Positions 1,030 through 16,107 of a stretch of 64,000 nt of DNA are shown piece after piece (position 1 is the first letter of the stretch; each line of letters begins with the position of its first letter). Source of the DNA: Xestospongia bergquistia. Its lineage: Eukaryota; Porifera; Demospongiae; Haplosclerida; Petrosiidae. Location: assembly GCA_963965975.1 (NCBI GenBank), contig OZ014423.1:4862301-4926300 (forward strand), given 5' to 3'. The notes under the pieces are model-generated. The model was not told the origin of the DNA and ran no database searches. It saw nothing but the letters and a program-made list of their open reading frames with translations. The translations under genes and the position numbers were made by a program.

Positions 1030-1192
1030 TAGTGCTTTCAAATTCCAGCAATTTGACATAATGATAACCACGAGTAATAAAATTAAAGGACTCATTAATT
1101 TTATATTTAAATCAATCAAGCAACTTTCAATATCATGAAACATGTACTACTACAAACAATGTCAAATATTTGTAAGACCTACAATGTCTGTT

Positions 1193-3648
1193 CTATTCGT
1201 TATCTTGTCTTTCATCATTTTGGTTTATTTCTGGATGGAAATTGTTTTGAGATAAATTTTGTTTAGAGTCATCATCAGTAGCTTTGTTATGTTTTTCATT
1301 TGTTGGATTATTAAAGCTACAACTTGGAGTTTGTTCTTTTTGTACTATTGATTCATCTTCAGTTTTTTTATAAGGGGGTGTGTTTGTGATTTCTAATGTA
1401 GAATATTGATGTGGAGTTGATTGTGGTATTTCCAAAGTAGAATATTGATGAGATGCTTTCAAAGTAGAACATTGGTGTGATATTTCCAAAATGGAATGTT
1501 GATGTACCTTTTCCAGTGTAGAATATTGATGTGGAGATGATTGTGGCATTTCCAGTGTAGAATATTGATGCGGAATGGAATCTGGTATTTTCAATGTAGC
1601 ATATTGATGTGGAGTTGATAGTGATTCTACTGGTGTGTTTATTTCTTCATAACTGGCAGGCTGAGATGCTCTTTTCAGTTGAGTTATTATAGGTTCACAG
1701 TAGTTCATTGGGGAATCCATGAGAGTTGAGTGTGTTTCTACTGGTGTATTTATTTCTTCATAACTGGGATTTACATTATGTATAATTTGAGTGTCAGCTG
1801 ATGACAAACATATCGTTTCTTGTGGTTGCCCTATGGGATTAAAGGAAAGTCATAAGTGAAACCCTATCTATCAAAACAAGTCATGCACTACTTGCATCCA
1901 AAACTCACTTGATTTTTTATAATACATCAGACACATTAACCCAATAAGGATTATCAGCAAAGTACATAACAAACAGACAATAATGGACATGTATATAAAG
2001 TGAAGCCGATACTTTTCTGTAATACAGTCATCAAGTTGAGTACTTTGTCTTACAAAAGAAGATGAAGCAAGTCCATGTTGACTTGAAGCTAGCATCTGAT
2101 GACTATAGTCTGTTGTAGTTATCAGTGAAATTGCAAAGGATGGGGAAATAGAATGAGTTTTGTGTGCACTGTTAGTTGGTTCAGGTTTTGTCAATGACCA
2201 GGTAGCTAATAAGGTTGCTGTACTCTGTGCCAATTGTCCTATTAGTTTATGGCTATTGTAAATGAAAGAAGCATTTGGAAGACCACTTGTATTTCCTTGT
2301 ATGCTACAATTAAGCTGCTCTGTTGAACTGCAGTTAGACAATTCATATTCTCTGCGTTCATTATCATGAGAAATAACCTATGAAAGGAAACAAAATGTTT
2401 TATAAAGGTATGTCCTCAAATAGAGTCCTGGGGCTTTAATTACTTTCCAAGATTTTGACCAGGCTTCTTAAACAAAGGAGGCCTTTATTTTAGTAACAAT
2501 CATTAATCTAACAATGCTCACGCTAAATCTCTCACAGCTTGGATTCTACTAGGATTTAGGGTAGACCAATCAAAATGCTTCTGTCATGTGACCGAGGATG
2601 GTCATGTCTTATTTAATTACAAGGCGTTCAAAGTTGAAGAAGGAAGGCAAACTTTCACTAGTGACTTGCTAGTAACCACAAATATTCACAATTAAAACTA
2701 AAGTGCCTATAGGACATGTTTCCTACTTTGAATAGAAGAGAAATAGGACCAAAAAGTAATACCTGGAAATGACAGGAAGGAGAATATTTAGGCCTGTATT
2801 AGGCTTTAATATAATAGTGTTTTTGTTGTTTTTGTAACATTTACAACTTGCTACAGATATCAAATCATCTTTTTTGAAATGGATTCAATATTTTTTTGCT
2901 GACAGATGGACACAACCAATTACTTAACCCTTTTGATTTAGTAAATGCAAAATTAATTTTAATTTTGAAAATGTCAATAAACGTTGTTATTGACCTCTTC
3001 CTATAACCAGACACACTAATCACAAAACCAGCAACCACACACTACGCTCTAAAAAATAATTCTTGACAAAAACGCATTGTCTTTTGACGTGGGAAGGGCA
3101 TGGTCAGTAGGCTTTAATTTGAGACCAGGCCTCTATTTGGAAGAGGCCCTATTCAAGGAAATACAGTCCTTAAATTCAGTTCTTATAAAAAATTTATTCT
3201 ATTATAAACTCACTTTGAAACAACTGTCATATATTTTTGACGTTTTACACACCCAAGTAGCATTATCATTACAGCTTGTACTTTTGAACACAATATTCCA
3301 TTCTGTCACATACTCCAGGTGATACATCAACTTGCAACTATTGCTGGCCATGGTCATGAACCACCCTGCAGAAGGGTATATATAGTGCACAATTATTAAA
3401 GGGATGTATATAATTATAATACAGATTGGTTTATCAATTCACTCAAATCTGTACTGTATTAATATATGAAGAAATACCACAGTTGTCCTTACGAATATAA
3501 TAGTCTATACATCTACCTCGCTAAGAAATACCACAGTTGTCCTTACAAACATAATAATCTTACATCTACCTGGCTCTAAATTTATTATACTAGTCATGCA
3601 TGATCTAAACAACTTACCTGATGATAACAAAATAAGTAAAAAAATCAT
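1193..3648 (-). CDS. Single-pass receptor-like protein with ITAM-spaced YxxL repeats and two YEEI motifs
   Basis: Four exons join in frame: 3648-3618, 3365-3214, 2377-1909, 1830-1193, with donors gtaagt, gtgagt, gtgagt and AG acceptors. The sum is 1290 bp, 429 residues. Residues 1-10 (MIFLLILLSS) begin a signal peptide. The ectodomain of about 175 residues has six or more Cys and several NxS/T sites (NCS, NTS, NAS, NAT) and matches no domain I know. Residues about 186-214 form one membrane helix followed by YYKKSR. The tail (about 215 residues) has SYEEINTPVE twice (Tyr 241 and 278), then seven HQxSTLE-type repeats of 13 residues: five keep Tyr (294, 307, 320, 347, 360) and two have His or Cys instead. 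YxxL motifs are spaced by 9 residues, inside the ITAM rule YxxL-x(6-12)-YxxL. YEEI is the classic Src-family SH2 ligand. Signalling is an inference; YxxL could instead be AP-2 sorting signals. Confidence 0.8.
2408..3164. mobile_element. Putative MITE-like insertion in receptor intron 2
   Basis: The 836 bp intron between receptor exons 2 and 3 is unusually long for this locus. Its ends carry imperfect inverted repeats: gtatgtcctcaaatagagtc at 2408 and, on the other strand from 3164, gtatttccttgaatagggcc (about 17 of 24 positions agree). The phrase ggctttaat-gaccaggc recurs near both ends. No transposase ORF is visible. No clear target duplication was found, so the boundaries are tentative. Confidence 0.45.
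3455..3575. repeat. Two-copy tandem repeat, about 63 bp, in receptor intron 1
   Basis: The segment starting gaaataccacagttgtcctt recurs about 63 bases later with few differences, inside the first intron of the receptor gene. No function is apparent. Confidence 0.75.
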
Positions 3649-4164
3649 TACTCTTTCTAAACAATGAAATATTCAATCTTTATTCTCACTCAAAATTCAC
3701 GACAAACAACTTGTATACTTAACTAGTTTCTTTATATAAACACAGCTAATAGCAACGTAGTCGTGATTAATATAACACGTACAGCCCATGTTAACCTCAA
3801 AATGCAAATAGTAATATTAATTATTAATAATACGTAGCGCAACAGTTAAAAGTGTCTATGTTTAAAGCAATAATATAATTATTAAAGTTGTCCAAAGATT
3901 ATTTGATGGTACTACTGTTGCTGTAAGGGACTGGATTATTGCTAACTTAAGACTGAAGAATGGCAGAAGCTATGGAACTGCAAGTAACACTTCACGCCAA
4001 ATTCTTGATAATAGTATTCATTAGTTGCTATGCATATCGGCGGTTACTGTGCGCGGGTTAATTTCATAATTCGCTCACGAAAGTCGTATATACGATGAAA
4101 ACAAGTATTATTTATTATTATAATTATAATAGTTAACATTGGTCTAAACATAGGACTGCACACA
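3649..4164. other. Intergenic gap, receptor 5' flank to GH3 pseudogene
   Basis: Apart from the TATA-like box I see no gene. The stretch is AT-rich and holds the receptor promoter. GH3 similarity begins abruptly at about 4165. Confidence 0.5.
3730..3739 (-). promoter_or_regulatory. TATA-like box of the receptor gene
   Basis: The minus strand reads ttatataaag about 80-90 bases upstream of the ATG at 3648. This is a plausible TATA box for a short 5' UTR. Position and sequence are seen; function is inferred. Confidence 0.4.
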
Positions 4165-4558
4165 GTCAGAATATTTGAAGGTAGTATATGATCTGTAAAA
4201 TCGTATCATAATAGAACTATGTAACATGTTCTACTTACAGTCCATATCCAAATGGATAGAGAGGTTCTCCCTCAAATATTGGTAGGTCCTGTTGACCATA
4301 GTGTAGTCAACTATGGGAGGGACTTGGTCTACCAGCTGGGTTATATTTTCCAGTAAGTACATTGGCTGTAGCTTCACCAGCAGTCTGTTCATATAAAATA
4401 TAATACTACATTATTGTAGACTGTCTTATACCTGAGCTGGATAATAAGCTTCTAAAATAGCAAGATATCGAGGATTTTGTTTAGCATAACTTATATCAAG
4501 TGGACCAGCATTGAAAAGGATTAGAACAATTGGAGCTAAAAATGTAAGAAAAATACAA

Positions 4559-4712
4559 TATTATATCATTATTATAATTATCTACCTTATACAATAAATA
4601 CAATATTATATCATTATTATAATTATCTACCTTATACAATGAATACAATATTATATCATTATTATAATTATCTACCTTATACAATAAATACAATATTGTA
4701 TCATTATTATAA
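4559..4712. repeat. 45 bp tandem repeat, about 3.5 copies
   Basis: A 45-base unit containing tatcattattataattatct is repeated in an intron of the GH3 pseudogene. Copies A and C have only one unit at the same place, so the array expanded after duplication. Confidence 0.85.
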
Positions 4713-5890
4713 TACAATTAATGCTAGTACCATTCAGTATACCATTTCAACTATATTGTTGTTGACCAAGTAGATTGATATCAGCTCTATCATGTTCTTC
4801 ACTTTCAAGATGCTTGGCTAGGGATTTGATATGAAAAAGTGTGATAACAAAATCACTTACTAAGTATAGCTGTAGTAATTACAATATACAGACTTCTTCG
4901 AGATCTGGAGTAAATTTACTAGATAGTAACAAAACACAATTGATTTTTAACAAAATGCATTAGTGTAGGAGAGTAGTCATCAAATAGAACAAACAGCTGG
5001 ATCATCAATAAAAGGACCTATTACCTATATAATACAATGTGATTATTATATCACTGATATCATGTACTTACACAAGCCTTGTCTACTTGACCTAGAGGTA
5101 GTCCTTTAGTTTCATCACTCTTTAAAAGGACAATAGATTCCATAGCTGCTTGTAGAGAGATCTCAATATGAGCAGCATTTCGAATGATAGACAAATCCAA
5201 TCTAAAAAGAAGTCATGATTATAAAGTGAGTTCTATAAACACATACTCACTTAGTGTATGGATTCATTTCAGGTGGATCAAATTCTCCAAGTTTCATACG
5301 AACCATAAACAATCTACTTACAGCATCTCTAAGAGTATCAATATTAACAAGTCCCTGTATGAAGGAAAGAAATATAAAATGTAGTTCACATTAACAAATC
5401 TTACCTCACTAACTGCATCAACCAAGCTATCAAAGACACTTTTGTCTTCAGCATTACCATCTTCTAAACAATTACCGGCATTAGCAGCAGCTGCTGACAA
5501 AGTAAAGTGAGTAGTGATGCTTTGTAACAATGTTCTCTAAAATTTCTAAAATTTATTTTATGATAATCTCATGTTATTTACCAAGAACTCCCTGGTCACT
5601 GACTACATATCCTTTAAATCCCCACTCATTTCTTAAAATATTATTAAGTAGTTCTTTATTAGCACATGATGGAACACCATTAATACTATATATGAGATAT
5701 ATATAACATAATATAATATAGATCATTATTTATACACTAGTATATAGTACCTATTATAACTACACATAAGACTCCAAGATCCAGCATCAACACAGGCTTT
5801 GAATTGAGGAAGAAATGTCATACGCCAATCTCTCATGCTAACCTAGAGAGATGTAGAAAAGAGATAGAGGGATATACATATATATAAAAT

Positions 5891-13308: not shown

Positions 13309-16107
13309 ATGTGGAGAGCTGGAGTGGATGTTAAAACCATCACCAACACAGAAGATGAAGATGACTGGGAAACAGATCCTGATTTTGTGGTATGTCTTCT
13401 TATTTCCTCTCACCCACTGATGTAGTACTGTTTTATAGAATGATATTTCAGAGGAAGAGCAGAGATGGGGATCAAAAACTGTTTCTGGCTCTGGAAGACA
13501 AGAAGGTGTTAGGTAAGGGGCATTAGAAATGATATAAAATTCAAAAGGGGTGGTTATCCAAGTTAGTACTGCTGAATTTGAACTTACATAAGAATTAAAA
13601 TGGAATTTTGTCGTGTTATAATCCAGATAATTGGGCTAGTAAATAAGTGTGAACAAATGTATACTGATAAGTGCAAATTATTGATTATCAGTTTTCATTT
13701 TTAACTGCTCATCGTTATAATTTTTAACTGACTACATATGCTGTGTATAGCTATTATGTATTATAAGAAAGTTAATGTTATATAAATGAACCAACATAGT
13801 TTAAATAAACGTCATTTGAAGTTCTATACATAATTATTACTACACAAGTTACTTATAATTGACAAACATTGTAAGTAAAGATAGTTGACATTTTCATTTT
13901 GAATGTTATTATTATATATAATACATAAGAGAGAGTGTGTATTAGAATTGCTGTTATCTTATTGTGTATTCATTTGTATGTAATATGATATGGCGTCCTA
14001 TTTTCAATATAGTATGGCTGCACTTCGACAGAATGTCCAGAAGGAAGATAAAGAAGTCAAGAGTGCTTCTCAACATTCTTCACAGAAAGATGCAGCAAAG
14101 GGATTTGGTGGAAAATATGGTGTCATGAAAGATAGACAAGATAGAGTATGTTATAATGAGTTAAATTTCAATGGCATTCTCTCTCGCTCTCTTCCTTCTA
14201 GTCTGCAGTCGGATTTGAATATCAGTCTGAACTGTCAAAGCATGTCTCACAAACTGATGCTGCTAAAGGGTTTGGTGGGAAGTTTGGTGTCCAGAAAGAG
14301 AGAAAAGACAAGGTTGGCATGGTGGTTCATAATAATAGATGCATGGGTGGAATTCATGATGTGGGAGCAATGATGAATGGCTACTAAGGAGATGCCCTTT
14401 TAGGGAAAAAATAACTTTAATGATGTCAATTAATTATTACCATACTAGTATTGTTGAACTTACTATATTTGGTAGTCTGCTCTTGGATGGGAATATCAAG
14501 CTGATCTGTCAAAACATGAATCACAAACTGATGCTACTAAAGGTTTTGGTGGTAAATATGGAGTCCAGAAAGTTCAAGATAAGGTAGTTTCATTAATATA
14601 AGAGTTTTATTAACAAAGTTTTTTTAGTCTGCTGTTGGTTGGGATCATCATGAAAAGCTGTCACAACATGAGTCACAAACTGATGCTGCCAAAGGATTTG
14701 GTGGTAAATTTGGAGTCCAGAAAGTACAAGATAAGGTAGTGTGTTTATAACTTTTAAAATAATCTTCAGTAATTACTACTTTCAGTCTGCTGTTGGTTGG
14801 GATCATCAAGAACACTTGTCAAAACATGAATCACAAACTGATGCATCTAAAGGTTTTGGTGGAAAGTATGGAGTCCAGAAAGTTCAAGATAAGGTACTCT
14901 GTTTAAAATATTGGGTATTTAATATCAATTTCTTTCAGTCTGCTGTTGGTTGGGATCATCAAGAACATTTGTCACAACATGAATCACAAACTGATGCTTC
15001 TAAAGGTTTTGGTGGAAAATATGGAGTCCAGAAAGTTCAAGATAAGGTACTCTGTTTAAAATATCAGGTATTTAATATCAATTTCTTTCAGTCTGCTGTT
15101 GGTTGGGATCATCAAGAACACTTGTCAATGCATGGATCACAAACTGATGCTTCTAAAGGTTTTGGTGGAAAGTATGGAGTCCAAAAAGACCGACAAGACA
15201 AGGCTGCAGGAGGCTATGATGACATGGAAGAAGTCAAATCCTCATACAAGACTGATCGTGGCGGGGCTCGTGGACAAGCTGGTAACATTCGTGCTAGATT
15301 TGAGAAAATGGCTAATCAGGAACAAGAAGAAGCTGGTCGTCGTGCTGAAGAAGAGAAACAACGTCGTCTAGCTAGAGAGAAGAAGGAGCGTGAAGAACAG
15401 GAACGAAAACAGCGTCAACAAGAGGTAGTGATATACGCACAACTTAGACTAAAATGGGACTATTGTTTGCATCTAAAGAATATTGTTTTGCACATCATTA
15501 GGAGCTAGAAACTCAACAACAACAGTACATAGAAGAGGAGGAAGAAGAAGAGGAGGAGGAGGGACATCCTTATCATGACATAGAGCATGAACAACTTCCT
15601 GAACAAAAGGAAGAGGATGTCACTTATGACACAGCTGAGGTACCTGCTCACCCAGGGCCACCCATTCATGTTAATCCAGAGGAAATTGTGTATGAATTAG
15701 CTGAGCAAGAAGAAACATTTGACCAAGAACAACCAGTTTACGATGATGTTGGGGGATATCAAGAAGAGGGACAAGAAGATCATATTTATGATACTACAGA
15801 AGAACCTGAGGTATTACTGTACATCTCTCCTCTCTATCTATCCGTCCTTCTGACTAGGTTGTAAGCAGTGGAGGAGGCAGAAGAGCTAGAGCTGTTTATG
15901 ATTATCAAGCTGGTAAGTATTGAGTCTTATCATATAAGAGTATATTCTAAATGTTGATTCTTGTATCTCGTAGAAGGAGAAGATGAGATTTCCTTTGATC
16001 CTGATGACATTATTGAGAATATTGAGGAAGTTGATGAAGGTTGGTGGTTAGGAGAAATTAATGGTCAGAGAGGACTGTTTCCGGCTAACTATGTTGAGCT
16101 CATTTAA
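13309..16107 (+). CDS. CTTN: Cortactin (actin-nucleation promoting scaffold)
   Basis: The N-terminus has the acidic Arp2/3-binding motif [12 protein letters not shown]. After a 0.5 kb intron come seven cortactin repeats of about 37 residues, each essentially one exon, with the signature [17 protein letters not shown]; the first is atypical (SMAALRQN). Then a charged helical segment ([19 protein letters not shown]), an acidic and Tyr-rich linker with candidate phosphotyrosine sites (VYELAE, VYDDVGG, IYDTTEE), and a C-terminal SH3 domain ([29 protein letters not shown]) ending VELI-stop. In animals cortactin binds F-actin through the repeats, activates Arp2/3 through the N-terminus, and is a Src substrate. 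The introns after repeats 5 and 6 are almost identical, showing recent exon duplication. Confidence 0.97.

Follow-up and report, generated by a model that had tools for sequence, protein, structure and literature searches.

Does a sponge possess receptors that signal through ITAMs? The question is raised by a gene near one end of the window, the whole stretch of 64,000 nucleotides from Xestospongia bergquistia that was analysed. The predicted cytoplasmic tail of this gene carries a row of YxxL motifs, and a sequence-only reading took the product for an ITAM-bearing receptor. To our knowledge, no receptor served by Syk is known in sponges. None of the titles and abstract openings that we found, a scope outside which most subscription papers lie, describes an ITAM receptor from a sponge. 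The accessible parts of PMC9505182, PMC10253181 and PMC10815962 contain nothing on sponge ITAMs.

The gene lies on the minus strand. Joining four exons (3648-3618, 3365-3214, 2377-1909 and 1830-1193) yields a product of 429 amino acids in a single frame, with a stop codon at the end and GT-AG boundaries at all three introns. The gene had been placed at 1193..2377. This interval covers only exons 3 and 4 and leaves out the first two exons at 3214-3648. The model consists of the following pieces:

3618..3648, minus strand: exon 1, putative signal peptide MIFLLILLSSG, with a phase-1 donor CAG/GTAAGT; read from sequence only, the weakest exon
3214..3365, minus strand: exon 2, encoding the Cys-rich N-terminus of the ectodomain, with acceptor CTGCAG and donor AAA/GTGAGT
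1909..2377, minus strand: exon 3, remaining ectodomain, membrane helix and basic stop-transfer
1928..1999, minus strand: transmembrane helix, residues about 188-211, hydropathy up to 3.24
1193..1830, minus strand: exon 4, cytoplasmic tail with the stop codon at its end

The single-pass architecture that had been proposed is borne out: there is one membrane helix, YYKK follows it, and a putative signal peptide precedes the ectodomain. Exons 3 and 4 correspond to two long open frames of 218 and 168 codons. In 500 dinucleotide shuffles of positions 1101-3700 the longest frame reached 168 codons twice and never exceeded 193. It is unlikely that the two long frames arose by chance.

A Pfam search finds no Ig domain in the protein and no match above the cut-off in the ectodomain. 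Weak scores for TMEM154 (E 0.0077) and SCIMP (E 0.99) both stay far under the curated cut-off. SCIMP is a transmembrane adaptor of small size that crosses the membrane once and has Tyr motifs in its tail. The window protein resembles the SCIMP and TMEM154 adaptors in being small and single-pass with Tyr motifs; with Pfam scores below the cut-off, membership is not claimed.

The gene is flanked by C-terminal exons of glycoside hydrolase family 3 (PF01915, E 1.1e-14), at 1-1029 on the plus strand and 4231-4880 on the minus strand. The copy on the other flank is partial and inverted, and near-identical in the 44-aa frame compared. Elsewhere in the window, at 13984-15508 on the plus strand, four stretches of HS1/cortactin repeats occur (PF02218, E 4.9e-34). 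Their DNA period of 153 bases exceeds the Pfam repeat of 36 positions.

The tail of the window protein comprises residues 215-429, hence 215 residues. It contains nine Tyr, seven of them within YxxL/I:

1751..1762, minus strand: YEEI at Tyr 241, Src-SH2-type motif
1640..1651, minus strand: YEEI at Tyr 278, second SYEEINTPVE copy
1391..1609, minus strand: seven-unit array HQ[Y/H/C][S/A][T/I]L[E/K], unit steps 13, 13, 9, 9, 9 and 13 residues
1592..1603, minus strand: YATL at Tyr 294
1553..1564, minus strand: YSTL at Tyr 307
1514..1525, minus strand: YSTL at Tyr 320
1496..1498, minus strand: unit 4, His329 (CAT) in place of Tyr
1469..1471, minus strand: unit 5, Cys338 (TGT) in place of Tyr
1433..1444, minus strand: YSTL at Tyr 347
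1394..1405, minus strand: YSTL at Tyr 360

The five YATL/YSTL motifs were already listed in the sequence-only reading, and its numbering (Tyr 294, 307, 320, 347 and 360) is exact in the 429-aa product. The nine residues it gave between consecutive motifs are found between L297 and Y307, L310 and Y320, and L350 and Y360. The YEEI motifs at Tyr 241 and 278, each within a duplicated SYEEINTPVE, are an addition, and the second of them forms a fourth ITAM-spaced pair, 278/294 (YEEI-x12-YATL). Between Tyr 320 and 347 come units 4 and 5 of the repeat, whose Tyr position is occupied by His329 and Cys338. When the tail was shuffled 20,000 times, 3.2% of the shuffles had at least one YxxL/I-x(6-12)-YxxL/I pair and none had seven YxxL/I; both figures overstate the case, since units that arose by duplication do not count as independent.

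Is this tail an ITAM tail? In the portions available to us, the ITAM is given as YxxL/I-x6-8-YxxL/I in PMC12058738 and with a looser x6-12 spacing in PMC3827506. Under the loose rule the YxxL-x(6-12)-YxxL pattern claimed earlier holds, with x9 for 294/307, 307/320 and 347/360, and the added pair 278/294 fits as well, with x12. The strict x6-8 spacing does not occur, as the gaps are 9 or 12. The Pfam ITAM profile (PF02189) finds no match in the window protein at E up to 10, and the window is absent among the 21 places that a search of the genome with the ITAM profile yields. Furthermore, an ITAM has an acidic residue upstream at -3. In the window tail this position is Pro for Tyr 294, 307, 320 and 360, and Ser for Tyr 347.

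Like the ITAM tails of CD3/zeta, FcR gamma and Fc gamma RIIA, the window protein is single-pass with paired YxxL/I in its tail; as in zeta, several pairs stand in a row, and kinases of the Src and Syk types are encoded in the genome. In contrast to these proteins, its gaps are x9 and x12 instead of x6-8, and it has neither the -3 acid nor a Pfam ITAM match nor a Pfam ectodomain above the cut-off. The description as an ITAM-bearing receptor thus survives in part. The single pass, the loose spacing and the presence of Src, Syk and SH2-SH2-PTP in the genome agree with it; strict spacing, Pfam, the -3 acid and the presence of Tyr in only 5/7 units do not.

Enzymes that could read such a tail occur in the same genome (146.46 Mb searched, 21 contigs), where an SH2 profile search finds 81 places. 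One of these, L039, has two SH2 domains, both with FLVR, followed by kinase frames downstream. Its best PDB matches across both domains are SYK and ZAP-70 (E 3.9e-47). This Syk shares 73% identity with the Ephydatia fluviatilis protein, 67% over 80% with the one from Geodia barretti and up to 79% with sequences in further assemblies. With Ephydatia and Geodia as the sources of the nearest named Syk proteins, a demosponge origin is indicated and an identification as Amphimedon is not supported. Sponge Syk is already known from A. queenslandica, whose Syk is the outgroup of a Syk phylogeny in the part of PMC9601881 available to us, and an Ephydatia sequence is in databases. A Src-type SH2-kinase frame of a group on C6 has Src as its best PDB match (E 2.6e-157). 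Both kinase types that the sequence-only reading ascribed to sponges are found here.

The third kind of reader combines two SH2 domains with a phosphatase. On C7, two SH2 domains and Y_phosphatase stand in one ORF (Pfam-tested). On C3, such genes are single frames, two of which were read, and six SH2 pairs with the same spacing stand in a row there; a further gene on C6 is split over exons (L022/L046). In the copies on C7 and C3 the PTP signature reads HCSAGIGRTG (L023), HCSSGIGRTG (L031) and QCSNGIGRTG (L034). Because the signature varies, with QCSNGIGRTG in L034, one of the copies may have lost its phosphatase activity.

The window gene itself appears to stand alone. Searches of the genome with the protein, the ectodomain and the tail detect the gene only once, the next-best matches having E 1.3 or worse. 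None of 1,830 candidates drawn from 5.8 billion proteins scores E <= 0.001 against the product. The protein search depends on shared 5-residue words, and its negative result gains weight from the recovery of sponge Syk in the same database. Since neither a paralogue nor a protein relative was found in these searches, the gene would seem to be lineage-specific or very fast evolving. The HQY[S]TL pattern is not enriched in the genome (17 and 30 matches versus 28 and 25 in a reversed control). Eight of the 47 genome matches were opened, and all lie in frames without the array.

As the most likely explanation, at a probability somewhat short of even, we tentatively propose that the window protein is a single-pass receptor or adaptor specific to its lineage, with a tail that serves as a platform for multivalent phosphotyrosine docking. 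A Src-family kinase would phosphorylate the tail. YEEI is a Src-SH2 ligand, and Tyr 241 and 278 are candidate sites of this type; the two YEEI sites would retain the kinase through its SH2 domain. The YxxL array would then draw tandem-SH2 proteins: Syk, in an activating and ITAM-like role, or else SH2-SH2-PTP phosphatases. The proposal presupposes that the gene is expressed, that the tail is disordered, that it would be phosphorylated and bound by one of these readers, and that the ectodomain would meet a ligand. It is supported by the seven of nine tail Tyr in YxxL/I, by the constraint on the repeat core described below and by the presence of Syk, Src and SH2-SH2-PTP. It is weakened because only 5/7 units have Tyr, the gaps are 9 and 12, and the searches found no Pfam ITAM and no relatives.

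The same motifs may serve endocytosis. The AP-2 sorting signal Yxx-phi is a tyrosine motif of cytoplasmic tails with a bulky hydrophobic residue at +3, and one such signal suffices for AP-2. All seven motifs of the window tail fit this form, and about 30 residues separate the first of them from the membrane. If they are repeated sorting signals for efficient endocytosis, the Tyr would stay unphosphorylated and pairing would be needless, which fits the irregular steps of 13 and 9 residues and the two Tyr-less units. We nevertheless consider this explanation unlikely. An array is superfluous where one signal suffices, and the duplicated YEEI resembles an SH2 ligand more than a sorting signal.

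Alternatively, the tail could be inhibitory, with phosphorylated YxxL docking SH2-SH2-PTP phosphatases and not Syk. Genes for such phosphatases on C3, C6 and C7, several of them in a row on C3, are in keeping with an inhibitory tail, as is a spacing longer than the strict 6-8. However, ITIM and ITSM motifs have the form [S/I/V/L]xYxx[I/V/L] or TxYxx[V/I], and no residue of this class is found at -2 in the window tail, where the five YxxL have His and the YEEI have Pro or Ala. This makes an inhibitory tail improbable in our view.

Could the array simply be a coding tandem repeat that grew by slippage, with motifs as by-products that have no Tyr function? At the DNA level it consists of tandem repeats of 39 and 27 bases, all five Tyr codons are TAT, and two units are without Tyr. 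Yet across the seven units of the seven-codon core HQYSTLE, pairwise pS is 0.46 and pN 0.096, and six of the distinct changes are synonymous and five non-synonymous (P 0.011 against equal rates). Given this synonymous excess, the core seems to be held at the protein level, which argues against a freely drifting repeat. Slippage is also opposed by the YEEI motifs, which stand apart from the array and persist in both copies of their repeat, and we regard it too as improbable. The sequence-only reading had named a repeat under no Tyr selection as an alternative. The core constraint disfavours a repeat under no selection, but it applies to the whole HQYSTLE core: with two replacements (CAT and TGT) and 0 synonymous variants, the Tyr codon of the array gives no sign of a constraint of its own.

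That the four-exon model is partly wrong (a different first exon, a missing signal peptide, or exons 3 and 4 in another transcript) is very unlikely: the model comes from sequence alone and exon 1, its least secure piece, has only 31 bases and a short h-region, but three GT-AG introns keep one frame, and the helix and tail sit in the two long open frames of exons 3 and 4.

Beyond the window, the 21 places of the ITAM profile search score 15.8-18.2 bits against a cut-off of 22.2, and 18 of them stand in a row at C2:270-379 kb. They lead to a second receptor family. One member was read (C2:366863-363964, minus strand), its exon order taken from the order of open frames: a putative signal-peptide exon without Pfam match, two Ig exons (I-set, E 1.6e-10 and 2.4e-13), an FN3 exon (E 9.4e-9), two unmatched exons, a helix and a tail. 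For one family tail PF02189 gives 16.0 bits (E 0.017), short of the cut-off. When the 7,993 most-word-sharing candidates were scored against the Ig/FN3 receptor protein, eight relatives were found at E <= 0.001, with 25-28% identity over 22-38% of the query. No sponge protein is among the eight; the named ones are from an insect and vertebrates.

The family is tandemly duplicated, at C2:270-384 kb, C2:5.93-6.22 Mb and C10:4.906-4.938 Mb, with further sites on C4, C1, C6, C5, C11 and C12. A tail-peptide query yields 45 places, and 28 of these fall within C2:270-384 kb. A juxtamembrane-peptide query without the YETI part finds 91, of which 43 adjoin a tail-query place and 48 do not. We read 74 loci (L047-L063 and L066-L122): 44 hold the 45 tail-query places (L057 has two, the better being counted), and 30 come from the 48 others, whose remaining 18 are mostly weaker or shorter. 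From the juxtamembrane stretch on, 64 of the 74 are open; ten were dropped for stops or a missing stretch. Five dropped loci (L051, L053, L054, L066 and L091) still read YETI-x7-YDNI.

The tails follow the scheme AYST[L/M/V] or SYSRM, x11, YETI, in part continued by x7/10-YD[N/D]I. A pair Yxx[L/M/V/I/E]-x(10-14)-Yxx[I/V/M/F] occurs in 60 of the 64 open tails, with x11 in 53; the match in L103, counted among the 60, is due to chance, its frame having left the family sequence. Among the loci found only by the query without YETI, the pair is present in 24 of 26 open tails, L103 included and with YKIV as the second motif in L095 and L098. The first motif of the 60 is YxxM in 36, YxxL in 13, YxxV in nine, and YxxI and YxxE in one each. 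A third motif is present in 33 (22 at x7, nine at x10, one at x9 and one YxxF at x10). It is missing from the remaining 27, in many cases because of a stop codon in place of the Gln that follows YETIN elsewhere. Such a stop directly follows YETIN or YETIQ in L093, L096, L101, L102, L104-L107, L111 and L112, and in several a remnant is readable behind it. Thus the last motif was apparently lost by a nonsense change in these members.

A second gene type is interleaved with the family on C2. L065 contains a Receptor L domain (E 2.5e-10) and tail motifs YERI and YETT; in L053/L054 the tail reads YESI-x7-YETI and ends in DDDYI. From a shared GPTRCGNC exon we infer that the Receptor L domain and the YESI/YERI tails belong to one gene.

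Strict ITAM spacing (x6-8 with L/I in both motifs) is found in 24 of the 64 open tails. In 22 it is YETI-x7-YDNI or YDII, and these 22, closely similar to one another, all come from the C2:270-384 kb cluster; in two (L095 and L098) it is YQSI-x8-YSTL. Another 12 tails have x6-12 spacing only, giving 36 of 64 under either rule and 28 under neither.

Are the tyrosines kept? The two paired Tyr are invariant in all tails that have the residue (63/63 and 61/61, with a gap in 1 and 3 of 64), and the third Tyr (AYG) is kept in 60/64; in reading these counts it matters that the copies are related and not independent, and that one query held the motif and the other the first Tyr. Only four of the 64 well-filled columns of the tail alignment are invariant. 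Over the family tail pN/pS is 0.86, a nearly unconstrained drift, while the two paired Tyr codons have 0 replacements, and one of them has the synonymous TAC in 5/61. Tyr losses are seen in dropped or degenerate copies: NETI and VNDNI in L082, SETI and VNDNI in the L073 frame, VNDNI in the L069 frame, and VFDNF for the third motif in L081. The proposed comparison of tyrosines with drifting surroundings was thus made across paralogues of the second family, not across species, and its open members pass.

Because this family keeps its paired Tyr, such motifs are probably used in this sponge. The case for a sponge ITAM rests better on the second family than on the window gene. The family is the stronger subject because it is multigene, keeps both Tyr amid drift and has Ig and FN3 exons in one member.

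The two tails share paired Tyr motifs and the strings YSTLE and YE[E/T]IN. Kinship between them was considered and rejected, as BLASTP gives no alignment at E <= 100, and for this reason the common strings are not counted. In contrast to the multigene family, the window gene came up as a single copy in our searches, and the tails are without detectable homology.

Outside vertebrates, an Ig receptor with a classic ITAM, CgIgIT2, is described for the oyster Crassostrea gigas in the part of PMC11999971 available to us. The window protein shares with CgIgIT2 an ITAM-like tail outside vertebrates. However, CgIgIT2 has five Ig domains and the window protein none by Pfam, and the Ig/FN3 family is the better counterpart.

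Taken further, these observations would be explained by a complete ITAM-type immunoreceptor system in the sponge. It would comprise the Ig/FN3 family (about 60 open paired-Tyr tails, 24 of them strict), Src-type kinases, Syk and SH2-SH2-PTP, with the window gene as an independent, new multi-YxxL input. Some branches would have a changed output, because the stop after YETIN removes the last motif. We consider such a system possible, at somewhat less than even likelihood. If it is real, ITAM-type receptor signalling would stand at the base of animals, and the family would supply candidate receptors for sponge self/non-self recognition. With a sponge receptor that carries motifs for these readers, the age of the ITAM-Syk pairing can be put to the test.
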